A stretch of DNA of 10,599 nucleotides, taken from positions 42,287 to 52,885 of the forward strand of contig JAGIAA010000021.1 of assembly GCA_017745115.1 (NCBI GenBank), in the 5' to 3' direction. The translations under genes were made by a program, and so were the position numbers. Shown piece by piece: positions 1 to 10,599 of this stretch (its first letter is position 1; every line of letters starts with the position of its first letter). The notes beneath the pieces are model-generated. The model was not told the origin of the DNA and did not search any database. It was given only the letters and a program-made list of their open reading frames with translations. The DNA is from Sphingobium sp. (GTDB lineage Bacteria; Pseudomonadota; Alphaproteobacteria; Sphingomonadales; Sphingomonadaceae).

Positions 1-102
1 TGGATGGGCTTTTGGGCAATCAAGCGTGCCTATTCGGTACGATGAGGCGGCATTATGCAGCTTCGGTCAGTATTGCGAGCCTGAATCGCGATTCGAAACA
101 CG

Positions 103-129
103 ATAATTGATGTTCTAGACATCAATTAT
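103..129. promoter_or_regulatory. Perfect inverted repeat, probable operator of the XRE regulator
   Basis: Arms ATAATTGATGT (103-113) and ACATCAATTAT (119-129) are exact reverse complements, 11 bp each, with a 5-base centre. The right half recurs: TAGACATCA is found at 116-124 and again at 144-152, 28 bp downstream, the second copy running into the start codon. Such a dyad directly before a small HTH gene is the usual form of an autoregulatory operator. The dyad and repeat are seen; binding by the adjacent XRE protein is inferred. Confidence 0.6.
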
Positions 130-144
130 AGGTGTCGATATATT
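116..144 (+). promoter_or_regulatory. Sigma70-like promoter of the XRE-sulP pair, probably leaderless
   Basis: TAGACA (116-121, five of six matches to TTGACA) and TATATT (139-144, five of six to TATAAT) are separated by 17 bp. Transcription would begin about 7 bases past the -10 box, at or next to the ATG at 152, and there is no Shine-Dalgarno sequence before that ATG, so the mRNA is probably leaderless. The -35 box lies inside the inverted repeat at 103-129, so a bound repressor would block polymerase. Confidence 0.55.
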
Positions 145-151
145 AGACATC

Positions 152-415
152 ATGATGAGTTCGGCCCAAATGCGCGGTGCGCGCGCCATGCTCGGCATCG
201 ATCAGCGGGAGTTGGCGGAGATGTCCGGCGTGTCGCTCCCCACCATCCAGCGCATGGAGGCGAGCGACGGTAATGTGCGCGGGCTGGTCGACAGCTTGAC
301 CAAGGTGGTTGAGGCGCTGGATCGCGCCGGCATCGAGTTGATCGGTGACGACGTGCCGAGCCCGTCCGGCGGACGCGGCATTCGCCTGAAACAATCGGCC
401 CGTCGGGGGAACTGA
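152..415 (+). CDS. XRE-family helix-turn-helix transcriptional regulator
   Basis: An 87-residue protein made almost entirely of one XRE/Cro-CI-type HTH domain. Residues 8-62 carry the fold: RGARAMLGIDQRELAEMSGV gives helices 1-2, SLPTIQRMEA (28-37) is the recognition helix, and VDSLTKVVEALDRAGIEL is the closing helix and strand. The last 20 residues are polar and probably disordered. ATG codons stand at 152 and 155; neither has a Shine-Dalgarno sequence. The stop is one base before the sulP GTG start, so the two genes are very probably co-transcribed and translationally coupled. From context it most likely represses its own promoter and so controls the anion transporter; whether it senses a ligand cannot be seen, as there is no sensor domain. 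Confidence 0.85.
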   Translation: MMSSAQMRGARAMLGIDQRELAEMSGVSLPTIQRMEASDGNVRGLVDSLTKVVEALDRAGIELIGDDVPSPSGGRGIRLKQSARRGN

Positions 416-416
416 C

Positions 417-2114
417 GTGGCCGGCGCCGCAGCCCGCCCGAGCTTTGCCGCGCTTTACACACCCAAGATCGTCACCGTGCTGCGGGAGGGCTATGACGCT
501 GCCGGCCTGCGTGCGGACGCCATTGCCGGCCTCACCGTCGCCATCGTCGCGCTGCCGCTTTCGATGGCGATCGCGATTGCCTCGGGCGTCGGCCCGGAAC
601 GCGGGCTCTATACGGCGATCGTCGGCGGTTTCCTCGTCTCGCTGCTCGGCGGCAGCCGTTTCCAGATCGGCGGGCCCGCCGGCGCCTTCATCGTGCTCGT
701 CGCCGGGACCGTGGCCAAGCACGGGGTCGATGGCCTTGCCGTCGCTACCTTCCTCTCCGGACTCATGCTGATGGCGGTCGGCTGGCTGCGGCTCGGCACC
801 TTCATCAAGTTCATCCCCTATCCGGTGACGGTCGGTTTCACGGCGGGGATCGGCGTCATCATCTTCGCAAGCCAGTTGAGGGACCTGCTTGGCCTCACCT
901 TGGCGGGCAAGGAACCGGGCGAACTGGTGCCCAAGCTGGAAGCGCTGGCCGCAGCGTTGCCGACGATCAGCATGGCGGCCGTCGGGGTGGCGCTCGCCGC
1001 CATCGCCATCATCGTCGCCTGCCGCATCTGGCGGCCGCACTGGCCGAGCTTTCTCATCGCCGTGGCGCTGACGTCGCTCGTCGCCGCGCTGATGCATTTG
1101 CCCGTCGAAACGATCGGCACCAAATTCGGCGGCATTCCACGAGCCCTGCCGGCGCCGCAGCTGCCGGATCTCTCGCCGGAGCGCGTCGCCGCATTGCTGC
1201 CCTCCGCGTTCAGCTTCACACTGCTCGGTGCCATCGAGAGCCTGCTGTCGGCGGTGGTGGCCGACAGCATGAGCGGCGGGCGGCATCGCTCCAATTGCGA
1301 ACTGGTGGCGCAGGGCGCTGCCAACTGTGCGAGCGCCCTGTTCGGAGGTCTCTGCGTCACCGGCACGATCGCGCGCACCGCGACCAATGTGCGCGCCGGT
1401 GCACGGGGGCCGGTGGCCGGTATGCTCCACGCGCTGTTTCTGCTCGGTTTCGTTCTGATCGCCGCGCCGCTCGCCCGCTACATTCCCCTGGCAGCGCTCG
1501 CCGGGCTGCTTGCCACGGTCTGCTGGAACATGATCGAGCGCGAACAGATCGCCGCTTTGTTCCGCGCCTCGCGCGGGGCGGCGCTGGTGCTTTGCGTCAC
1601 GTTCCTCGTGGTCATCTTCCGCGATCTCAGCATGGGGATATTGGTCGGTTTCGCCCTGGGCACGCTCATCACGCTGCAGCGGCTCGCCCAGGCCATCGAA
1701 GTCGAGCAGGGCGCGCCCATGATCGAGTCCGACCGCGCCGACAGCGATAATGCGCCGACCATCGAAACCGGCGCGGCGCGCGATCCGGATATTGCTTTTT
1801 GCCGCATCTCCGGCGCCTTCTTCTTCGGATCGGCCGGGATCGTCTCGGCGACGCTGGACCGGCTCGGCGAGCATCCGCGGGCCTATGTTATCGATCTCGC
1901 CGACGTCGCCATGCTCGATTCGACGGGTGCGGCGATCATCGAGGGCTTCGCACGCAAGGTCGCCCGGCGCGGCGCGGCGCTCTACATCGCCGGGGCGCGG
2001 CCGGCTGTGCGCCATGTCCTGGTCGCCCATCATGTGACCCCGCCCCATGCCCGCTACCGGGCGACGCGCGCGGAGGCGTTCGCGGCGGCAAGGGCGGCCG
2101 AGGCCGGCCATTGA
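417..2114 (+). CDS. SulP-family inorganic anion transporter with C-terminal STAS domain
   Basis: A 565-residue inner-membrane transporter of the SulP/SLC26 family. Residues 33-425 form the hydrophobic transport domain. It includes the family-typical SGVGPERGLYTAIVGG (56-71) and GGPAGAF (85-91), a conserved glutamate in GAIESLLSA (271-279), and TGTIARTATNVRAGARGP (315-332), which matches the 'R.A.N..AGA' family motif. A cytoplasmic STAS domain follows at about 458-555, with the SpoIIAA-like DSTG at 501-504. The GTG start is chosen because GGGGGA (405-410) lies 6 bases before it and family homology begins soon after. Substrate could be sulfate, bicarbonate or another anion; SulP substrate cannot be read from sequence. 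No carbonic anhydrase or sulfate-assimilation gene is adjacent to settle it. It is the second gene of the XRE operon. Confidence 0.9.
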   Translation: MAGAAARPSFAALYTPKIVTVLREGYDAAGLRADAIAGLTVAIVALPLSMAIAIASGVGPERGLYTAIVGGFLVSLLGGSRFQIGGPAGAFIVLVAGTVAKHGVDGLAVATFLSGLMLMAVGWLRLGTFIKFIPYPVTVGFTAGIGVIIFASQLRDLLGLTLAGKEPGELVPKLEALAAALPTISMAAVGVALAAIAIIVACRIWRPHWPSFLIAVALTSLVAALMHLPVETIGTKFGGIPRALPAPQLPDLSPERVAALLPSAFSFTLLGAIESLLSAVVADSMSGGRHRSNCELVAQGAANCASALFGGLCVTGTIARTATNVRAGARGPVAGMLHALFLLGFVLIAAPLARYIPLAALAGLLATVCWNMIEREQIAALFRASRGAALVLCVTFLVVIFRDLSMGILVGFALGTLITLQRLAQAIEVEQGAPMIESDRADSDNAPTIETGAARDPDIAFCRISGAFFFGSAGIVSATLDRLGEHPRAYVIDLADVAMLDSTGAAIIEGFARKVARRGAALYIAGARPAVRHVLVAHHVTPPHARYRATRAEAFAAARAAEAGH

Positions 2115-2169
2115 CGTGGCGCGCGCCTCCGAACATCCTTTTCGCAGGATTGGGACATGGGGAGAAGAT

Positions 2170-2880
2170 ATGAAGCGGACATGGCTGGGCGCGGTCGGCG
2201 CCATCATGCTGGCGGGTGCCGCCGCGGCGCAGGACCTCAATACAGCCGAAATCGTCGTCACCGGCAGCCGCATCGAGCAGGATGGCTATTCGCGTGACAT
2301 GCCGGCGGTCGGATTGCGGCGGCCTGCCGATTATCTCGTGCAGGAGGTGATCATCAGGGGCGACACGCGCGACGCCAAGCAGCGCAGTCAGGAAATCTAC
2401 GCCATGCTGACCAAGGCAATCGAGCTCGCCGGCAAGAACGGCGTCGAACTCGCCTATGGCGATTATATCCTGACGCCGCTGAACGTCGGGAACATGAAGG
2501 AGCTGTCCCTTGCGAACGACAATCGGCCCGACAGCCAGCGCATCACATTTCTGGCCAAGGTGAAGCTGTCGTCGTCGATGTCAGGCAAACAAGCCCAGGA
2601 AAAGATCGAGAAATATGTCGATTCCGTGCCGGAAGTCGGCCGCGCCCAGATGGACAGCGCGGATGATCCCACCCTGTCGATCGTCGGTCCCGACGGCTAT
2701 CGCGCGCAGATCGCCGCCGTCGTCGGCGAGGATGCACGCTCGCTCGCCGCCAAGATCGGTGAGGGGTACAAGGTGCAGATCGAGGGCCTGAACATGCCAG
2801 TTCAATGGACGCGCTCAGGCCCGTCCGAAGTCTTGCTCTACATTCCCTACAAGCTGACCATCGTCCCGCAGCGTCAGTAA
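2170..2880 (+). CDS. Exported SIMPL-like protein with an N-terminal TonB-receptor-like segment
   Basis: A 236-residue protein. Residues 1-20 are a Sec signal peptide (MKRTW, a hydrophobic run, cleavage near AAAA-QD). Directly after it comes AEIVVTGSR (26-34), the same wording sphingomonad TonB-dependent receptors carry between signal peptide and plug. The remainder (57-234) fits the SIMPL (DUF541) pattern: an alpha helix over AKQRSQEIYAMLTKAIELAG, then GVELAYGDYILTPL, alternating strands, and a closing strand LLYIPYKLTIVP. No receptor barrel is present. The ATG at 2170 is chosen because GGAGA (2161-2165) precedes it and the signal peptide begins there; an in-frame ORF opens further upstream but overlaps sulP. 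It lies 55 bases after sulP and may be transcribed with it. SIMPL assignment is remote and by eye; the periplasmic location is more secure. Confidence 0.6.
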   Translation: MKRTWLGAVGAIMLAGAAAAQDLNTAEIVVTGSRIEQDGYSRDMPAVGLRRPADYLVQEVIIRGDTRDAKQRSQEIYAMLTKAIELAGKNGVELAYGDYILTPLNVGNMKELSLANDNRPDSQRITFLAKVKLSSSMSGKQAQEKIEKYVDSVPEVGRAQMDSADDPTLSIVGPDGYRAQIAAVVGEDARSLAAKIGEGYKVQIEGLNMPVQWTRSGPSEVLLYIPYKLTIVPQRQ

Positions 2881-3845
2881 CCTCGCTCCAGATCCGCGAC
2901 CGCCTCGAGCGGCTCGCCGGCGAGATAGCGATGGACATTGTCGGCGAAGCGCTTGGCCGCCTGCACATACATGGGCAGGTTGCCGCGCCCGGACATGTGC
3001 ATGGTGATGATGATGTTGGGCGCCGCCCAGAGCGGATGGTCGGCGGGCAAGGGCTCGGGATCGGCGACGTCGACGAAGGCACTACGCAGGCGCCCGCCCT
3101 TGAGCGCGGCAATCAGCGCATCCTGGTCGACCATCGATCCGCGCGCGATGTTCACGAAACGGGCGCCGGTCTTCATCGCGTCGAACTCGGCGGTGCCGAT
3201 CATATGATAGGTCTCGGGCGTCTCGGGCGCGGCGAGGATCACATAATCATATTCGCCGAGACGTGTCCGCCAGTCCTCTGCGCCGATCATGCCCTGCGCC
3301 GGATCGGCCTGCCGCCGCACACCGGTCACCATCATCCCACAGGCCTTGAGCCGCTCGCCCAGCTGCGATCCGATTGCACCATAGCCGATGATCAGCGCTT
3401 TCGCGCCATCGAGATCGTCGTTGCATGGCGGCTGCGGCAGCCATTCGCGGCGGTCCTGCGCGCGGACGACCTCGTCGACGCGCTTGGCGAGCATGAGCAC
3501 GCCCATCAGGCCATAATCGGCGACCGCCTTGGAGGTGAGGCCGGTGCCCTTGGTGACGATCACGCCGCGTTCGCGGGCGAAGCCGACCGGGATCTTGGAG
3601 AGGCCGGCAAGCGTCGTGTGCAGCCATTTGGCCTTCTTCGCGGCGAGCACCGGGCGCGGATCGTCCTCCAGCCGGAGGATATCGAGCCAGCCGATATCGG
3701 CGAGGGGCGCCAGCGCGATCGCCTCGTCCACATCGGCGAACCAGCGCACCTCGACCCGGTCGAGCGGGAGCATCGGCTCCAGCATCGGGCGCATGAGGCC
3801 GGGCGCGACGATCACCGGCTTTTGGAGGACCGGTTTCTCAGCCAA
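2874..3845 (-). CDS. D-isomer-specific 2-hydroxyacid dehydrogenase, NADP-type
   Basis: A cytoplasmic oxidoreductase interconverting a 2-keto acid and a D-2-hydroxy acid, about 323 residues from the TTG start. Visible features are the Rossmann motif GYGAIG (154-159), the catalytic arginine in NIARGS (R235), the glutamate in DPEPLP (E264) and the histidine in TMHMSG (H283). The second Rossmann strand ends in VRR (R177, R178) instead of the aspartate of NAD enzymes, which in this family points to NADP(H) and suggests a glyoxylate/hydroxypyruvate-reductase-like role. The substrate is not determinable. The start is uncertain: TTG at 3845 overlaps the cysS stop by 8 bases; an ATG at 3881 would overlap by 44 bases with no clear ribosome site; GTG at 3815 is also possible. 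It is probably co-transcribed after cysS. Its 3' end overlaps the convergent gene by 7 bp. Confidence 0.85.
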   Translation of the reverse strand: MAEKPVLQKPVIVAPGLMRPMLEPMLPLDRVEVRWFADVDEAIALAPLADIGWLDILRLEDDPRPVLAAKKAKWLHTTLAGLSKIPVGFARERGVIVTKGTGLTSKAVADYGLMGVLMLAKRVDEVVRAQDRREWLPQPPCNDDLDGAKALIIGYGAIGSQLGERLKACGMMVTGVRRQADPAQGMIGAEDWRTRLGEYDYVILAAPETPETYHMIGTAEFDAMKTGARFVNIARGSMVDQDALIAALKGGRLRSAFVDVADPEPLPADHPLWAAPNIIITMHMSGRGNLPMYVQAAKRFADNVHRYLAGEPLEAVADLERGY

Positions 3846-5310
3846 GGATCGGCTTCCAGTCCCAGCGCAAGGGATCGCCATCCATCACGTCAATGCCCGC
3901 TGCCACGAGCTGGTCTCGGATCGCGTCGGAGGCCGCGAAGTCCTGGGCCGCGCGGGCCGCCTTGCGCGTCGCGAGCAGCTCTTCGACCGCCTCGTCCTCC
4001 AGCGCCGCATCCTTCGGGCGGACGCGCAGGTCGGTGCGGGTCAGGGTGAGCAGATCGAAGCCGAGCACGGCGTCCATTGCCTCGATGAGTGCGCGCTTCT
4101 CTTCGGTCGGCACTTTCTTGATGGCGACTGCCTCGTCGAGCAGCGTCAGCGCGACCGCGGTGTTGAGGTCGTCGCTGATCGCCGCGTCGAAGCGCTCCAG
4201 CAACTCGGTGAGCTTCGGATTGCGGATCGCAGGCGCTGCGGCGAGGCCGGTGAGCGGCGCGACCGCCATCACCATCCGCTTCAGCCGCGTCAGAGCCGCC
4301 GCGAGGATCTCCCAGCTGAACTCCAGTTCGCTCCGGTAATGCGCCTGGAGGCACATCATCCGATAGGCGAGCGGGTGGAAGCCTTTGTCGATGAGCAATT
4401 GCACGCGCAGGAACTCGCCGCTCGACTTGCTCATCTTGCCAGATCGCTCGACCAGGAAGTTGTTGTGCATCCAGATGCGCGCGCCGCTGTTCTCGGCCAT
4501 GTCGAGGCCATTGGTGCAGTTATGCGCCTGGTTCTGCGCGATCTCGTTGGGATGGTGGATCTCGCGATGGTCGATGCCGCCGGTGTGGATGTCGAACGGG
4601 AAGCCGAGCACCTCGCCCGACATGACCGAGCATTCGAGATGCCAGCCCGGCGCGCCGCGGCCCCAGGGCGACTCCCATTCCATCTGCCGCGTTTCGCCCG
4701 TGGGCGTGTTGCGCCAGATGGCGAAGTCGGCGGCGTGGCGCTTGCCTTCCACTTCCTCGATCCGGGCCCCAATACCTTTGGCACCTTCCTCGGTCACGGC
4801 GCGCGCGAGGCGGCCGTAATCCGCGACAGTCGATGTGTCGAAGTAGAGCCCGCCGGGCAGGGCGTAGCAATGCTTGTCGGCAATGCCCTTCGCAAACTCG
4901 ATCATCTGCGGCACGAAGTCCGTCGCGATCGTCCATTGCGCCGGCTGGCGGATGTTGAGGGCCTTCACGTCGGCCCAATAGGCTTGCTTGTAGTGCTCGG
5001 CGATGTCCCAGATGGATTGCGCCTTCTCGGCCGCCATTTTCTCCATCTTGTCCTCGCCGGCATCGGCGTCGTCGGTGAGATGGCCGACGTCGGTGATGTT
5101 GATGACGTGGGTGAGCTTGTAGCCCTTGAAGCTCAGCGCGCGGCCCAGCGTGTCCGCGAACACATAGGCGCGCATGTTGCCGATATGGGGATAGTTATAG
5201 ACCGTCGGCCCGCACGAATAGACGCGCGCCTCACCCGGGTGGACGGGACGGAATTCCTCCGTCTGGCGAGTCAGGCTGTTGAACAGCTTCAGCGGCGTGG
5301 TCTCTGTCAT
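3838..5310 (-). CDS. cysS: Cysteinyl-tRNA synthetase
   Basis: A class I aminoacyl-tRNA synthetase of 490 residues that charges tRNA-Cys. The HIGH signature appears as PHIGN (41-45) and the KMSKS loop is intact (292-296). The zinc ligands that select cysteine are all in place: C33 (YSCGP), C227 (HLECS), H252 and E256 (IHHPNE), with the same 25- and 4-residue spacings as the Escherichia coli enzyme. The DALR helical domain and C-terminal anticodon-binding region follow (about 330-490), ending DWKPILG. Length is close to the family norm (about 460-500). No strong Shine-Dalgarno sequence precedes the ATG. It is divergent from the antiporter gene across a 140-base gap, and the downstream dehydrogenase overlaps its stop codon. 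Confidence 0.97.
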   Translation of the reverse strand: MTETTPLKLFNSLTRQTEEFRPVHPGEARVYSCGPTVYNYPHIGNMRAYVFADTLGRALSFKGYKLTHVINITDVGHLTDDADAGEDKMEKMAAEKAQSIWDIAEHYKQAYWADVKALNIRQPAQWTIATDFVPQMIEFAKGIADKHCYALPGGLYFDTSTVADYGRLARAVTEEGAKGIGARIEEVEGKRHAADFAIWRNTPTGETRQMEWESPWGRGAPGWHLECSVMSGEVLGFPFDIHTGGIDHREIHHPNEIAQNQAHNCTNGLDMAENSGARIWMHNNFLVERSGKMSKSSGEFLRVQLLIDKGFHPLAYRMMCLQAHYRSELEFSWEILAAALTRLKRMVMAVAPLTGLAAAPAIRNPKLTELLERFDAAISDDLNTAVALTLLDEAVAIKKVPTEEKRALIEAMDAVLGFDLLTLTRTDLRVRPKDAALEDEAVEELLATRKAARAAQDFAASDAIRDQLVAAGIDVMDGDPLRWDWKPILG

Positions 5311-5381
5311 GGCTGCGCCATGTGATCGGACCGGCGCTCGCGGTCAACTCCCGACCCTTGAGAGCGCTACCAGATCCCGCT

Positions 5382-5396
5382 TGCGCGCAGCGCGCA
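5382..5396. promoter_or_regulatory. Short palindrome in the divergent cysS-antiporter gap
   Basis: TGCGCGC (5382-5388) and GCGCGCA (5390-5396) are perfect inverted arms around one base. A further TGCGCA lies at 5398-5403 (partial half-site). The element sits 55 bases before the antiporter ATG and about 70 before the cysS ATG, where a regulator could act on both. GC-only palindromes arise easily by chance in DNA of this composition, so a role is weakly supported. Confidence 0.3.
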
Positions 5397-5450
5397 TTTG
5401 CGCAGACTGAGGCGTGGAAAGCGCGCGAAAGACGCGATCGAGGGGGACAT

Positions 5451-6653
5451 ATGCCGCACAGCCTGAGCACGTCCGAGGCGTTCCTGCTCGCGATGGCGAT
5501 CATCTTCACGGTGCCGTGGCTGGTCTGGCGGCTGGCGCGCGCTGACAACATCGCGCCGCTCGTCGTCGTTCAGGTCATCGGCGGCATCCTGCTGGGGCCC
5601 AGCATGCTGGGTGCGGCCTTCCCCGATTATTACACCGCCGTCTTCCGGCCCGACGTCGTGACGGCGCTCAATGGCCTCGCCTGGTGGGCGGTCATGCTGT
5701 TCGTCTGGGGCGCCGGCATCGAGCTCGACCTGCGCTCGGCCTGGGCGGATCGGCGCCAGGCCGGCACGACCGCGGCCCTGGCGCTCGTCGTGCCGTTGCT
5801 CTTCGGCAGCGTCGCGGCGCTCGTCCTGCTGCACTTTCCCGGCTGGGTCGGCACCCGCGGTGCGCCCTGGCAGACGGTCCTCGGCATCGGCATGGCCTGC
5901 GCCGTGACGGCCCTGCCCGTGCTGCTGCTCGTCATGGACGAGCTCAAGATCCTGCGCGCGCCGCTCGGCCAGCGACTGCTGCGCTATGCCAGCCTCGACG
6001 ATGTCGCCATCTGGGCAGTGCTCGCCTTCATCCTGCTCGATTGGGAACGGATCGGGCGGCAACTGGCCTTCCTTCTCGTTTTCGCCGCCGCGGCCGTCGC
6101 CATCCGCGCGCTCATGCGCCGGCTCGCCGAAAAGGACCGGTGGCCGGTCGGGATCATCTGGCTGATCGTCTGCGGTCTCGCCGCGGACTGGTCCGGGCTG
6201 CACTACATGGTCGGCGCCTTTCTGGCGGGCGCAGTCCTGGATTCCGACATGTTCGACCGTGCCCGGCTAGACAGCTTCCGCAGCACAGTCCTGCTCGTGC
6301 TGATGCCGGTCTACTTCCTGTCGACCGGGCTCAAATCAATATGGTCGGCAAATGGCCTCATGGTGCTGGGCGGCACGGCGCTGCTGTTCATCGCCGCCTT
6401 CGCGGGCAAGCTGGTCGCCGTCGGCATGGCGGGCCGCATCCTGCGCTGGCCGCGGGGCGAGGCGCTTGTCATCGGGCTGTTGCTGCAGACGAAGGGCCTC
6501 GTCGGCATCGTCTTCGCCAATGTGCTGCTCGACAAGCAGATCATCGGGGGCGACAGCTTCACGGCGCTCCTGCTCATGTCGGCGCTGAGCACGATGCTGA
6601 CAATTCCTGCGGTGAGGGGGCGGCTTCTATCCTCCAGCCAGCAGCGCCTTTGA
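5451..6653 (+). CDS. CPA2-type cation:proton antiporter (sodium/hydrogen exchanger family)
   Basis: A 400-residue polytopic inner-membrane protein with about 11-13 hydrophobic segments, expected to exchange Na+ or K+ for protons. Family marks include GGILLGPSMLG (44-54), VTALPVLLLVMDELKIL (152-168), the paired acidic residues in SLDDVAIW (D183, D184), a membrane lysine in FAGKL (K320), and LLLQTKGLVGIV (344-354). The double aspartate is the ion-binding arrangement of electrogenic NapA/NhaA-type antiporters. There is no C-terminal TrkA-N (RCK) domain of the KefB/KefC kind; the protein ends soon after the last helix. The ATG at 5451 is favoured over an earlier in-frame ATG (5322) because AGGGGG (5441-5446) is correctly placed and hydrophobic homology starts here. 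It has its own promoter region and no obvious operon partner. Confidence 0.88.
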   Translation: MPHSLSTSEAFLLAMAIIFTVPWLVWRLARADNIAPLVVVQVIGGILLGPSMLGAAFPDYYTAVFRPDVVTALNGLAWWAVMLFVWGAGIELDLRSAWADRRQAGTTAALALVVPLLFGSVAALVLLHFPGWVGTRGAPWQTVLGIGMACAVTALPVLLLVMDELKILRAPLGQRLLRYASLDDVAIWAVLAFILLDWERIGRQLAFLLVFAAAAVAIRALMRRLAEKDRWPVGIIWLIVCGLAADWSGLHYMVGAFLAGAVLDSDMFDRARLDSFRSTVLLVLMPVYFLSTGLKSIWSANGLMVLGGTALLFIAAFAGKLVAVGMAGRILRWPRGEALVIGLLLQTKGLVGIVFANVLLDKQIIGGDSFTALLLMSALSTMLTIPAVRGRLLSSSQQRL

Positions 6654-6706
6654 TTCCCTCTTACAACTGAGTCCGAGCGCAGCCGACTTTACGTCAGAAG
6701 ATCTTT

Positions 6707-6750
6707 GATCTAAAAAGATCTAAAAAGATCTAAAAAGATCTAAAAAGATC
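6707..6750. repeat. 10-bp tandem GATC/A-tract repeat before the small DNA-binding gene
   Basis: Four exact copies of TAAAAAGATC occupy 6711-6750, preceded by a partial copy (TTTGATC, 6704-6710). GATC occurs at 6707, 6717, 6727, 6737 and 6747 with exact 10-bp period, plus one more at 6700. Each full unit carries an A5 tract, so the tracts are nearly in phase with the helix and should bend the DNA. The array ends one base before the GGAG at 6752. TTGATC (6705-6710) could serve as a -35 box with TCTAAA (6729-6734) as a weak -10, but this is not convincing. Confidence 0.9.
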
Positions 6751-6761
6751 TGGAGATGAGC

Positions 6762-7178
6762 GTGCGGACGATTGAGGTGACAACAGACGTATTTGCGGCA
6801 ATTTGGTCACGCCGTGCAGCTGACGAGCAAACGGAAAGCGAGATTCTCGCCAGACTTTTGGGGCTCGTGCAGATCCAAGTGGCAGCCAGCCGAAAGGAGG
6901 GTGAGAAATTGTCGAATAAGACACTTTGGCGAGACGACGTGCGTCGAGCTCTTGAGGTGCTCGGCGGTCACGGGCATCTATCTGAAATTTACAGGAAAGT
7001 TCGGGAAATCCGGTTGATTAGCGGTCGATCTCTTCCGCCTAGTACCGATGCCATCATCAGGCGTGAACTTGAGTACAATAGTTCCGATTCTGAGTCGTTT
7101 ACGGGTCATCATGACTGGTTTCGATCCAGCCGCGGGATCGGAGAAGGCGACTGGAGCCTGCGGAAGGTTAGCGCTTGA
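6762..7178 (+). CDS. Small putative DNA-binding protein: RHH/SeqA-N-like N-terminus plus winged helix
   Basis: A 138-residue protein not recognised as a named family. Residues 2-35 (RTIEVTTDVFAAIWSRR, then ESEILARLLG) have the strand-helix-helix wording of a ribbon-helix-helix unit and resemble the SeqA N-terminal oligomerisation domain (TIEVDDELY...ASDILRRML). A polar linker (about 40-55) leads to a winged-helix-like domain (56-134): helix DDVRRALEVLGG, LSEIYRKVREI, then IRRELE (99-104), SSDS (107-110), HDWF (117-120) and GEGDWSLR (127-134). I know that last pattern from the wHTH module attached to Mrr-like and other restriction endonucleases; here no nuclease follows. GTG at 6762 is preferred because GGAG (6752-6755) is 6 bases before it, whereas it touches the ATG at 6756 directly. 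Codon use is less GC-rich than the neighbours. Domain assignments are by eye. Confidence 0.6.
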   Translation: MRTIEVTTDVFAAIWSRRAADEQTESEILARLLGLVQIQVAASRKEGEKLSNKTLWRDDVRRALEVLGGHGHLSEIYRKVREIRLISGRSLPPSTDAIIRRELEYNSSDSESFTGHHDWFRSSRGIGEGDWSLRKVSA

Positions 7179-7184
7179 GCAAAA

Positions 7185-7212
7185 AAAGGCCGGGCGGCTA
7201 GGCCCGGCCTTT
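7185..7212. terminator. Shared hairpin terminator between convergent genes
   Basis: AAAGGCCGGGC (7185-7195) pairs exactly with GCCCGGCCTTT (7202-7212): an 11-bp stem with a 6-base loop. For leftward transcripts from the DUF2846 operon the stem is followed by seven U residues (A7 at 7181-7187 on the plus strand), a strong intrinsic terminator. For the rightward gene ending at 7178 the U tract is only three to four bases, so termination there would be weaker. Confidence 0.85.
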
Positions 7213-7230
7213 CTGCATCGCGCGGGCGGC

Positions 7231-7740
7231 TTACTGCGCCGAGGCGATCTGGTCGGGGCGAAGCGCGCCGGGCGCGGGGCCCATGTCATCGGCATCGACC
7301 ATCTTGAGCTTGGGCTGCTTACGGAATTCCTCTTCCGTCGAGGGGCGGATGTCGGGGCGGCCGACCATGATGCCCATCTTGATCTTGCAGCTGGCGAACT
7401 GGGTCTCGTCGGCCTCGACCTCGAGGGCCAGCACGTCCTTGGCCTCGCTCTTCACCGTGAACTCATGTTTGCCCGGGTCGGCGACCATGACGAAATATTT
7501 GCCGGCGCCGAGCGAGCTGACCTTCTGACCATTCTCGTTGACCGAGCAGCCGATCGCGAAACCCATGCCGCCGGGGCGGAAGAAGACGATCTGGCCCTTG
7601 CCTGCAGGCGGCTTGGGAAGGGCGATGGGCGCAGCCGCTTCCTTGTCCTTGCCCTTGTCCTTGTCGGCCGCACCTGCCGGAACCGCCAAGAGCGGCATCG
7701 ACAGGATCGCCATCATGGCGAGCGCCTTATTGTGCTTCAC
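7231..7740 (-). CDS. Exported DUF2846-type protein
   Basis: A 169-residue protein with a signal peptide (1-24: MKHNK, hydrophobic run, PAGAA), a Lys/Asp-rich linker (25-35), and a beta-rich domain at about 48-125 beginning GQIVFFRPGGMGFAIGC and continuing with NGQKVSSLGAGKYFVMVADPGKHEFTV, which fits DUF2846. Cysteines at 65 and 118 could form a disulfide in the periplasm. The function of DUF2846 is unknown; many members are lipoproteins, but this one lacks a lipobox at the cleavage site. The GTG start at 7740 is chosen because a GGAGAAGGA ribosome site precedes it and the signal peptide begins there; it overlaps the end of the preceding gene by 14 bases, so the two are translationally linked. 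The longer in-frame ORF upstream is Arg/Lys-rich and a shadow of the neighbour. Confidence 0.75.
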   Translation of the reverse strand: MKHNKALAMMAILSMPLLAVPAGAADKDKGKDKEAAAPIALPKPPAGKGQIVFFRPGGMGFAIGCSVNENGQKVSSLGAGKYFVMVADPGKHEFTVKSEAKDVLALEVEADETQFASCKIKMGIMVGRPDIRPSTEEEFRKQPKLKMVDADDMGPAPGALRPDQIASAQ

Positions 7741-8398
7741 TATCCTTCTCCCCTGTTTTGCCGGCCTCTGCCGGCGGCGTTGCTTCCGGCACCGCGCTCT
7801 CTTTGGCCGGGGCCGGAAATTCGAATGCTTCGGCGATCTTGGCTTCGGCGATCGTGCCCTGAGGGACCGTCGCCTGGCCGCCATTGATGAAGAAGCCAGC
7901 GAGCGCCACCGGCGCCAATATCGTCGGCGAGGTTGCGACCATCAGCGTGTTGACGGTGTTGATCTTGCTGTTGCCCTCGGGAACGAGGCGCATGCTGCGC
8001 AGCTTCAGGTGCCGCTCGCCAATGTCGAGATAGCGCGCGGCGAGCACCAGTTCGCCCGCAGCGCCCGAGCCGCCCGCCTTCTTGGCGTGGACGACCTCGC
8101 CCATCCCCATTGTCCCGGCCGGCACCATCTCATGCCCATCGACGACGATCGGCTCGGCGAGCCGGATGGGGAAGGTGTCGCCGCTCTTGCTGATCTTGCT
8201 GCCCAACTCCGTCAGGATCTCGATCCTGATCGGGGTCAGCGCGCTGATGGTCGGGCAGCCGCAAGCCGGCACCGCCGCAGCCGCCGGGGCAGGCTGCGCG
8301 GCGATAGCGCCATTATCCGGTTGTGCGGTAGAAACGGCCTGCGCCAGCAAGATTGGCGCAAGCAGCAGCAATGTCTTCGGCAAGCGAATGTCCCCCAT
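7727..8398 (-). CDS. Exported protein of unknown function
   Basis: A 223-residue protein. Residues 1-25 form a signal peptide (MGDIRLPK, Leu-rich core, AVSTA-Q). An Ala/Pro linker and a CGC pair (46-48) follow, then a beta-rich domain (55-140): IRIEILTELGSKISKSGDTFPIRLAEPIVVDG, PAGTMGMGEVVHAKKAGG and LVLAARYLDIGERHLKLRSM. The segment around 155-171 is hydrophobic and may be a second membrane contact or buried helix; the tail (197-223) is Pro/Glu-rich and disordered. The 'P.GT...G.V....' rhythm recalls outer beta domains of VirB10/TrbI-like proteins, but too weakly to assign. I do not recognise the family. GGAG four bases before ATG 8398 supports the start. It is the first gene of a two-gene exported-protein operon with the DUF2846 gene, and lies 80 bases after infC. 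Confidence 0.75.
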   Translation of the reverse strand: MGDIRLPKTLLLLAPILLAQAVSTAQPDNGAIAAQPAPAAAAVPACGCPTISALTPIRIEILTELGSKISKSGDTFPIRLAEPIVVDGHEMVPAGTMGMGEVVHAKKAGGSGAAGELVLAARYLDIGERHLKLRSMRLVPEGNSKINTVNTLMVATSPTILAPVALAGFFINGGQATVPQGTIAEAKIAEAFEFPAPAKESAVPEATPPAEAGKTGEKDSEAQ

Positions 8399-8478
8399 CC
8401 TCTCCGGGCGGCCTTGTGCCGCCGGGAACCCGATGGGGCAAGCGAAATCAGCGAGCGGAAGGCCCGGAAAAAACGCCC

Positions 8479-9027
8479 TTATTTCGGCGAGAGCACCATG
8501 AGCATCTGTCGCCCTTCCATGCGCGGATGGGCTTCGATCTTGGCGATTTCGGCGGTGTTTTCGGCCACGCGCGAGAGCAGCTGCATGCCGAGCTGCTGGT
8601 GCGCCATTTCGCGGCCGCGGAAGCGCAGGGTGATCTTCACCTTGTCGCCTTCGCCGATGAAATCGTGGACCTTCTTCATCTTCGTATCATAGTCATGATC
8701 GTCGATGTTCGGACGCATCTTGATCTCTTTGAGTTCCTGCGTCTTCTGGGTCTTGCGGGCAATATTGGCCTTTTTCTGGGCCTCATATTTGTACTTGCCG
8801 ATGTCCAGGAACTTGCACACCGGCGGATCGGCGTTGGGAGAAACCTCGACCAGGTCGAGACCCACGTCGGCAGCCTGCTCGATCGCCTCGCGCGTCAACA
8901 TCACGCCCAGATTTTCGCCTTCTTCATCGATCACGCGCACCTTGGGCACGGTGATGAATTCATTGTAGCGAGGACCGTTCATTGGTGGGGGCGGCGCAAG
9001 CGGGCGGCGCATCATCGGGGGACGTAT
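8479..9027 (-). CDS. infC: Translation initiation factor IF-3
   Basis: IF3 binds the 30S subunit, prevents premature 50S joining and proofreads start codons. The protein is about 182 residues, normal for the family. The N-domain (about 19-85) contains [49 protein letters not shown]; the linker helix and C-domain follow, with [33 protein letters not shown] and a closing LMVLSPK. The start is taken as ATA at 9027-9025: AGGAG (9040-9036) lies 8 bases before it, whereas the first in-frame ATG (9015) is 20 bases from that site. Non-canonical infC starts (AUU in E. coli) let IF3 repress its own synthesis. It follows thrS and a phosphoesterase on the same strand; rpmI and rplT are not downstream. 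Confidence 0.95.
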
Positions 9028-9040
9028 AGCAGTTTCTCCT
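9025..9040 (-). promoter_or_regulatory. infC ribosome-binding site with ATA start codon
   Basis: On the minus strand AGGAG is followed by eight bases and then ATA, in frame with IF3. Between ATA and the first ATG there are four codons (ATA CGT CCC CCG). No other AG-rich site serves the ATG pair at 9015/9012. The arrangement matches the known use of rare initiation codons in infC. Confidence 0.65.
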
Positions 9041-9060
9041 GTGGTTCGTTCAATAGAGCG

Positions 9061-9128
9061 AGCCGCTTCCTTAACGGTTTTGAGCGGCTACGGAAAGGGT
9101 GAGTGCGACGGGCGCACCGTACGGTGCG
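9061..9128 (-). other. infC leader with two inverted repeats
   Basis: The 165 bases between the phosphoesterase stop and infC hold no gene. They contain AGCCGCT (9061-9067) facing AGCGGCT (9083-9089), a 7-bp stem with a 15-base loop that would end about 21 bases before the infC Shine-Dalgarno site. They also contain a perfect 16-bp palindrome, CGCACCGT/ACGGTGCG (9113-9128). Neither is followed by a U tract on the minus strand, so they are not typical terminators. A possible -35 (TTGTGA, 9186-9181) exists with only poor -10 matches near 9163-9158. A leader structure or operator for infC is plausible but unproven. Confidence 0.4.
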
Positions 9129-9192
9129 GCGCTTTGGCCACAGTCCGGTTAACATCCTATCTAAGCATCGCGCGCCGGTTTCACAAGCGGCA

Positions 9193-10047
9193 TCAGGGCT
9201 TTGGACCGAAGCGGATCAGCCAGACGTCGGGCGGAGCGCCGAAGCGGAGCGGCAGGATGCTGGTGCCGACGCCCGCGCTGACGAACAGGTCGGTGCCCGC
9301 GTTGACGATGTGCCCGCAGGCGAAACGTTTGCCATAGCGCGACATCGTCACGAGCGGGCCGATGAACGGCAGGGCAATCTGCCCGCAATGGGTATGGCCG
9401 GCCATCACCGCCGTGACACCTGCACGCACGGACGGCATGATATCCGGGGAGTGCGAGAGGAGGATGCGCGGACCGGCACCCAGTGCGGTCATGGCGCCTT
9501 GGGTCGCGGCAAGGTCGCTATGGCCCGTGGGCTCGTCGTCGACGCCGCCGATGACGAGCGGGCCGCGACGGATGGCCTCATTGGCGAGGAGCGCGATGCG
9601 ATGACGCGCGAAGGCGTCGCGAAAGGCCGGTGCACCCCGCCAATGATCGTGATTGCCCAGCACGCCGACAATGCCGAGTCGCGACCTGAGCCGGCCAAGC
9701 GGCGCAACGGACTCGCCGACGGAATAGCGGTGCGTCGCGACCTTCTTGTCCGAAACATAGTCCCCCGTCAGCACCACCAGGTCTGGCTTGAGCGCATTCA
9801 GTCCGTCCACGATCCGCGCCAGCCGCTCGGGTGGCATCTCCGGCCCGGCGACATGAGTGTCCGATACGAGCAGCACCGTGACCGGCTTCTCGCCTTTCGG
9901 CCAGCCCGCCAACGCGACGTCGGCCCGGCGCACGACTGGATCCCAACTCGCCTCCCAGTAGGCGTAGAGCGCCAGCCCCGTCAGGATCAGCACCAGCGTC
10001 GCGGCGAGACGGACGGCCCACCACGACGCTGTTGGCTTGCGGATCAT
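9193..10047 (-). CDS. Membrane-anchored calcineurin-like metallophosphoesterase
   Basis: A 284-residue protein with one N-terminal transmembrane helix (about 12-30) and a metallophosphoesterase domain that would lie outside the cytoplasm if the anchor is N-in. All di-metal motifs are present: SDTH (D63, H65), GDY (D96), GNHDH (131-135), SHSPD (H199) and AGHTHCGQ (H218, H220). The architecture is that of the YaeI/YkuE group, whose substrates are variable; some relatives act on lipid A precursors or phospholipids, so an envelope substrate is a fair guess only. The ATG starts 10 bases after the thrS stop, implying one transcript, with a weak ribosome site (GGA). The domain is complete at about 280 residues. 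Its position between thrS and infC separates two genes that are adjacent in E. coli. Confidence 0.9.
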   Translation of the reverse strand: MIRKPTASWWAVRLAATLVLILTGLALYAYWEASWDPVVRRADVALAGWPKGEKPVTVLLVSDTHVAGPEMPPERLARIVDGLNALKPDLVVLTGDYVSDKKVATHRYSVGESVAPLGRLRSRLGIVGVLGNHDHWRGAPAFRDAFARHRIALLANEAIRRGPLVIGGVDDEPTGHSDLAATQGAMTALGAGPRILLSHSPDIMPSVRAGVTAVMAGHTHCGQIALPFIGPLVTMSRYGKRFACGHIVNAGTDLFVSAGVGTSILPLRFGAPPDVWLIRFGPKP

Positions 10048-10057
10048 CGGGTCCGGC

Positions 10058-10599
10058 TCAGCGCAGATCCGGCGGCGTCGCCTCGGCCTTGAGCGCAGCG
10101 ATCGCTTCGTCGAGCATCATCACCTTCTGATGCTGGTCCGATCCCAGCCGCCGCAGCGCGACCGTGCCTTCGTCCGCTTCGCGCCGGCCGACGACCAGCA
10201 GGTTGGGCACCTTGGCGAGGCTATGCTCGCGCACCTTGTAGTTGATCTTTTCGTTGCGCAGGTCCGTGTCGGCGCGGATTCCCGCGGCCCCCAGCTTGGC
10301 GACCACGTCCTTCGCATAATCGTCGGCGTCGGAGACGATCGTCGCCACGACAGCCTGCGTCGGGGCCAGCCAGACCGGCAGCTTGCCGGCGAAATGCTCG
10401 ATCAGAATGCCGATGAACCGCTCATAGCTGCCGAAGATGGCGCGGTGGAGCATGACGGGGCGGTGGCGCGCGCCGTCCTCGCCGACATAGCTCGCGTCGA
10501 GCCGCTCGGGCAGCACGCGGTCGGACTGGATCGTGCCGACCTGCCAGGTGCGGCCGATCGCGTCGGTCAGGTGCCATTCGAGCTTGGGCGCATAGAAGG
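10058..10599 (-). CDS. thrS: Threonyl-tRNA synthetase, C-terminal part (5' end outside window)
   Basis: The last 180 residues of a class II aminoacyl-tRNA synthetase; the gene continues past the right edge, so this is a cut, not a truncation. The visible protein opens with [19 protein letters not shown] and [17 protein letters not shown], the catalytic-domain part preceding motif 3. Motif 3 follows as [18 protein letters not shown]. The HGTP anticodon-binding domain comes next ([20 protein letters not shown], then [24 protein letters not shown]). It ends at a TGA 10 bases before the metallophosphoesterase ATG. The order thrS - phosphoesterase - infC on one strand preserves a modified form of the classical thrS-infC cluster. 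Confidence 0.96.

Follow-up and report, generated by a model that had tools for sequence, protein, structure and literature searches.

Within a 10,599-nucleotide stretch of Sphingobium sp. DNA (assembly GCA_017745115.1, contig JAGIAA010000021.1; hereafter the window), five units recurring every 10 bp stand directly before a gene whose product joins an N-terminal domain resembling that of SeqA (SeqA-N-like) to a C-terminal winged helix (wH). Our comparison of sequences and models makes it probable that this array is the operator of the downstream gene, bound by the gene's own product as an oligomerising autoregulator; the binding, the oligomeric form, repression as its sign and the wH domain as the reader are the parts of this proposal that we infer. 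The best evidence for an autorepressor mechanism is that the phase of the array is conserved while its letters drift.

Direct counting placed GATC at 6700, 6707, 6717, 6727, 6737 and 6747, and Tandem Repeats Finder (TRF) reported 6707-6751 as a perfect 4.5-copy tandem repeat of the 10-bp unit GATCTAAAAA (100% matches, score 90), the top score among the 10 tandem repeats in the window. The positions and phasing described in the original prediction, which had been made from the letters alone, were thus confirmed, as was its statement that GANTC is not present in the array. Over the 80 nt preceding the gene, self-similarity at lag 10 lay 5.9 standard deviations (sd) above dinucleotide shuffles. 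Since GATC is only mildly enriched across the window (111 occurrences vs 87 expected), it is the phasing, rather than the word, that is special.

The window protein alone gave no Pfam match at an expectation value (E) <=1. Across the family, 13 of 25 aligned members matched SeqA_N weakly (best E 0.0039), relatives L035 and L036 scored slightly over the gathering threshold, and the family profile matched the SeqA structures 1xrx (E 0.00079, residues 1-43) and 3fmt (E 0.0011, residues 1-52). These alignments indicate that the resemblance is real but weak, and with it the SeqA-N-like N-terminus first proposed for this protein is upheld; the different, winged-helix C-terminal part that had been claimed is upheld by the structure model, in which it is a predicted winged helix. 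In the monomer model the N-domain consists of two helices and no strand, with a predicted local distance difference test (pLDDT) score of 68 for residues 1-10. The C-terminal DNA-binding domain of SeqA was not among the Pfam families matched by the 25 members, and the top-ranking PDB rows from the profile (3jqh) were discounted as matches to a repetitive helical neck. The wH is common to HNH nucleases: an alignment of eight N+wH proteins (those with both domains) and 15 wH-HNH proteins contained eight invariant columns, and the N-terminal domain found in one HNH endonuclease family proved homologous to the window wH. The HNH nuclease domain itself is not in the window protein, which ends after the wH. 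Phage proteins gave no match to it, and the plasmid matches comprised four records, all HNH endonucleases.

Homologous loci were drawn from genome contigs (14), viral contigs (2) and family-alignment searches of partly overlapping sets of 397, 94, 195, 385, 6, 2 and 396 genomes, in which 16, 4, 3, 7, 2, 1 and 18 genomes, respectively, matched any part of the alignment; duplicates were dropped (L016 as L015, L017-L019 as L001-L003, L049 as L055, L057 as L056). In a motif-free test, which compared the 80 nt preceding each gene with dinucleotide-shuffled versions for identity, lag by lag, the 17 distinct N+wH loci reached a combined z of 9.5 at lag 10 and 6.3 at lag 20, values that overstate independence because the loci share ancestry. 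With close pairs thinned and the window left out (the window, L024, L044 and L045 removed), the remaining 13 loci gave 7.7 at lag 10 and 4.3 at lag 20, and no more than 2.1 at other lags. The control comprised 12 distinct genes with a wH but no SeqA-N (L005 being identical to L058), whose 80 nt stop where the domain match begins, 2-22 residues inside the open frame; it yielded 1.7 at lag 10, -1.3 at lag 20 and a maximum of 2.6 at lag 18. The best run of three hexamers, among periods 7-13, fell at period 10 in 13 of the 17 loci, a count made without a shuffle control. Units in this phase, with other letters, lie immediately 5' of full-length homologues; two examples are AGATCA-ATAA-AGATCT-AGAT-AGATCG-AAAA-AGATCT before L025, and AGATCA-AAAT-AGTTCT-GGAA-AGTTCC-AAAA-TGATCT before L022. 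The exact window array did not occur in the viral contigs searched. Among 10 carrier genomes or records, the exact triple AGWTC-N5-AGWTC-N5-AGWTC had its sole site before the gene in G093 and G283 and was not found in the other eight; of 94 family genomes, two carried it: G093, where it again precedes the gene, and G018, where it falls within a 587-amino-acid open frame with no family-profile match nearby. On this comparison the array is conserved among relatives in phase rather than in letters. The idea of self-control put forward in the original prediction is fitted by phased arrays standing also before homologues, and of the repeat expected there, the 10-bp phasing recurs while GATC as such is not kept.

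With the window left out, the unit consensus was AGWTCTRAAA, which is asymmetric and so suits one monomer per unit. It was derived from 27 units in eight non-window loci with regular arrays, leaving out the irregular L001 and L003 and the near copies L024 and L044, and the units were brought into register by eye, with the TC core as guide. T4 and C5 were conserved at 96% and G2 at 84%, and position 3 was split between A (52%) and T (44%); the TC core, on which the register was set, carried 1.75 bits vs 0.29-0.61 bits in the spacer. A conserved palindrome is disfavoured because positions 3 and 4 of the unit would have to be equally invariant if GATC were conserved, and the sequence read looks like a GWTC-type direct repeat rather than a methylatable palindrome. 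By hand count, GATC was present in 11 of the 27 units, the 16 others being GTTC, GGTC or similar while the 10-bp spacing persists, which speaks against the GATC-specific system originally proposed, in which binding would be set by GATC methylation state and which we now regard as very unlikely. Nor did GATC follow the genes of the MethyltransfD12 family, found in five of 13 genomes searched (G001, G074, G198, G402 and G411), some of which may be incomplete: none was found in G283 (4/4 units GATC) or G093 (2/4), other adenine methylase families lying outside the search, and G074 and G198 carry such a gene with arrays that have no GATC. Taken over all the genomes, this distribution gives mixed support against a methylation reading. 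A link to the methyl-GATC reader DpnI was considered and not taken up as homology, the tie seen being structural only: the wH profile found no sequence match to DpnI in PDB, and the DpnI structural row was one of many with equal Z, level with the wH domains of linker histone, FOX and ORC. The reading of methylated GATC was rejected as the conserved function, given that GATC drifts without correlation to MethyltransfD12 genes. A SeqA-like reading of GATC thus appears unlikely as the conserved function and SeqA-like phased, oligomeric binding likely, and methylation may still matter to some of the members or to the strain from which the window comes.

Which domain would read the repeat is suggested by how the motif varies. 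Winged helices with an RRE(L/I) recognition helix, including that of the three-domain L006, go with GWTC-type units (in L003 in the opposite orientation, GAAC), RRTL/RKTL helices (L047, L055, L056 and the near-twin L057) go with CCTC elements, and L026, with an RECL helix, has ACTCG twice, 9 bp apart. L056 carries five CCTC units, including a degenerate one, that keep the 10-bp phase exactly. In L055 the wH is nearest that of L047 (score 257, vs 150 for L006), the N-domain lies a little closer to that of L006 (117) than to that of L047 (101), its middle domain is of the L006, RAMA-like kind (168; L064 is nearer still, at 190), and its repeat is of the L047 kind. That the motif tracks the wH subtype makes it likelier that the C-terminal domain does the reading and the N-domain the linking, and the reader is probably the wH. 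The converse arrangement, in which the N-domain is a ribbon-helix-helix (RHH)-like DNA reader and the wH senses something else, we consider fairly unlikely. It would account for the N-domain pattern of a strand followed by two helices, for matches to DUF7557, which we take to be an RHH-like family, in six of 25 members (best E 5e-5), for a weak match of L015 to the VapB antitoxin family (E 0.14) and for the source name of P0020, 'predicted CopG family antitoxin'; the lack of arrays before wH genes without the N-domain fits it as well, and the RHH protein omega is described as polymerising on heptad arrays (PMC4803016). Against it, the repeat motif differs from one wH subtype to the next, repeats of another, CTAT type accompany N+RAMA-like proteins whose N-domains are similar, and the residue pointing outward from the strand would be E5, which matches SeqA. 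The asymmetry of the unit also tells against an RHH reader, although omega too is described as binding non-palindromic repeats (PMC4803016).

The N+RAMA-like proteins (L029-L031, L050-L052, L061-L065) and L034-L036, which pair the SeqA-N-like domain with another C-terminus, were kept out of the main count. Upstream of the former lie CTAT/ATAG-type repeats, with a weaker, mixed signal over the 11 loci (z 3.8 at lag 10, 3.3 at lag 17 and 3.2 at lag 7); the RAMA match is weak (E 0.003) and confined to L064, the other assignments having been made by eye. By eye, some of these genes adjoin integrase, resolvase or AAA ATPase genes, and L006 and L055, which have SeqA-N-like, RAMA-like and wH domains, apparently carry both repeat kinds side by side upstream. 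L034-L036 have two TTATAAG elements before the gene, spaced 14-15 bp apart in L035 and L036 and farther apart in L034 (by eye), and no 10-bp excess upstream.

Two further explanations were weighed. Control at the RNA level, with palindromic repeats forming leader hairpins that mask the ribosome site, would draw on the fold of the window leader, 3.9 sd better than shuffles, and on fold z-scores below -2 in eight of 16 loci folded. Clear arrays without a good fold (L015, z 0.16; L056, 0.45; L006, -1.0), and the fact that hairpins arise from inverted hexamers and do not demand a 10-bp phase, make this highly improbable; across the 16 folded loci an RNA leader was rejected as a general explanation, and an Rfam scan of the window gave no match at the gathering score. 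Neutral slippage, or intrinsic curvature from A-tracts, in either case with no dedicated binder, would suit the near identity of the window units, which makes a recent tandem duplication likely, and the A5 tracts recurring every 10 bp in the window array. Because relatives keep the spacing despite diverged units and conserve the TC core better than the spacer, we find an origin of this kind scarcely credible.

In seven of the 19 N+wH loci (17 distinct), a toxin-antitoxin pair lies 3' of the gene, as counted with four HigBA/HicAB query proteins at E<=1e-3: HigB and HigA follow L001, L023, L024, L044 and L045, and HicA and HicB follow L022 and L046. L006 offered about 350 nt of downstream sequence only. 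The regulator and toxin-antitoxin genes are co-directional and overlap by about 4 nt or abut, and the 14 loci with other C-termini gave no match to the four queries. All seven toxin-antitoxin loci, together with L002, stand directly after uvrB (confirmed with Pfam for L001 and L002, by eye for the remaining loci). Around the window gene, the G+C fraction falls to 0.48-0.55 over 6600-7200, vs 0.60-0.68, and among the matches listed the flanks of this segment are not neighbours in G210, G260, G265, G308 and G345, being separated by 30 kb or more (30 kb in G210) or placed on different contigs, in a comparison that scored two candidates per genome and included the five genomes with both flanks among those matches. 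The drop in G+C and the separated flanks point to a synteny break or an insertion. The CcrM site GANTC is strongly depleted in the window (1-10599; 17 vs 53 expected), and five of the 17 sites fall within the array-gene segment (6652-7096), as would suit DNA acquired recently.

Features of the array and the regulator gene are collected in Table 1. The start at GTG 6762, six bases 3' of GGAG, is preferred because the N-termini of most homologues read MRTIE(I/V) or nearly so. By eye, an AGAACT or AGATCT outlier 6-7 bp 5' of the first unit is also present in L002, L023, L024 and L046. In L001, L002, L022, L025 and L044-L046, GATA follows the last unit (TCTGATA) and might be a -10 element that the operator overlaps. 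The inverted repeat after the gene was read from the letters and was not flagged in the scan of the window.

Table 1 Features of the array and the regulator gene in the window.
Feature	Position	Strand	Remarks
Proposed operator, five 10-bp units	6706..6755	+	TGATCTAAAA, AGATCTAAAA three times, AGATCTGGAG, in the register of the core
Outlying AGATCT, 7 bp 5' of the first phased unit	6699..6704	+	read from the sequence
GGAG, Shine-Dalgarno-like, within the last unit AGATCTGGAG	6752..6755	+	read from the sequence
Regulator gene	6762..7178	+	probable GTG start 6762; ATG 6756 also possible
SeqA-N-like domain	~6762-6870	+	family profile against SeqA structures
Winged-helix domain, after a linker	~6921-7163	+	alignment, model
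GC-rich inverted repeat with flanking A/T runs, between convergent genes	7183..7215	.	possible shared terminator

Besides the shared ancestry of the loci and the manner in which the consensus was drawn up (four loci left out, register set by eye), several observations weigh against the array as the operator of an oligomerising autoregulator. Four of the 17 loci prefer other periods (L044 11, L026 9, L047 11, L055 8), and allowing one mismatch in the AGWTC triple added one site each in G198 and G283. The argument for the wH as reader draws on few loci; L047 and L055 are not clearly phased, and within the CCTC subtype a clear 10-bp phase is confined to L056/L057. Against setting methylated GATC aside, G402, the genome of L006, combines a MethyltransfD12 gene with GATC in 3/3 units, and G001 and G411 combine such a gene with mixed arrays; the case of G402 very slightly lowered our confidence in the autoregulator and raised that in methyl-GATC reading by as little. 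In the window itself, HigBA and HicAB were not matched and the next gene is convergent, and a window scan found no sigma-70-type promoter near the array.

Should the array act as proposed, each wH would bind one 10-bp AGWTCTRAAA unit, head to tail, and the proteins would align on a single face of the DNA because the units recur with each helical turn. Adjacent SeqA-N-like domains would then join and bridge neighbouring proteins, producing cooperative repression of the gene itself, steep in protein concentration; in some relatives the toxin-antitoxin pair of the same operon would be repressed too.

The regulator may work in the manner of SeqA or of omega arrays, although it is not a SeqA. Efficient binding by E. 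coli SeqA calls for pairs of GATC on the same face, with a separation of two to three helical turns (PMC5145175). The window family shares with SeqA a similar N-terminal domain and phased sites on one face; unlike SeqA, it has a winged helix at the C-terminus and no methyl-GATC domain, its units lie one turn apart, GATC is not conserved, and the array is apparently local to its own gene. Omega of the omega-epsilon-zeta system is a separate regulator, proposed to polymerise on arrays of heptads that precede the toxin and antitoxin genes (PMC4803016). A separate regulator gene likewise heads the toxin-antitoxin operon in some relatives, and this is the nearest known layout; omega, however, is an RHH protein on 7-bp heptads, whereas the window family has 10-bp units and a two-domain protein, with HigBA/HicAB downstream in 7/19 loci and none in the window. 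MetJ is a cooperative repressor on tandem 8-bp boxes, which it reads with an RHH ribbon; the window family would resemble it as a proposed cooperative repressor on tandem short boxes and differ in its reader, probably the wH. Winged helices of the wH-HNH and DpnI types are described from modification-dependent restriction enzymes (PMC11037411, PMC4117772). The wH-HNH nucleases carry a homologue of the window wH as their N-terminal domain; in contrast to both types, the window protein has no nuclease, and no sequence link to DpnI was found.

These regulators could belong to a class of modular autorepressors scattered through Alphaproteobacteria, a picture that we offer as speculative and, taken whole, quite improbable. 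In such a class a SeqA-type polymerising domain would be combined with readers related to those of modification-dependent restriction enzymes (wH, RAMA-like or both), each with its own repeat; the wH repeats would lie one turn apart, their letters drifting with the recognition helix, some members would have taken over HigBA/HicAB operons, and all-GATC copies such as that in the window could, in addition, sense the arrival of a Dam-like methylase and so serve as an alarm against phage. The class is apparently undescribed so far: among titles and the beginnings of abstracts in the open-access literature, we found neither SeqA-N + winged-helix regulators nor such a gene before HigBA/HicAB. SeqA fuses helical phasing, through its oligomerisation domain, with the reading of methyl-GATC, and the window family seems to separate the two, phasing seemingly being kept and methyl-GATC reading lost or exchanged. 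Comparing its subtypes would thus be a direct test of how phased, polymer-forming regulators acquire new specificity. The family would also supply a candidate third component for some HigBA and HicAB operons, and an instance of a restriction-enzyme-type winged helix employed as a plain transcription regulator.
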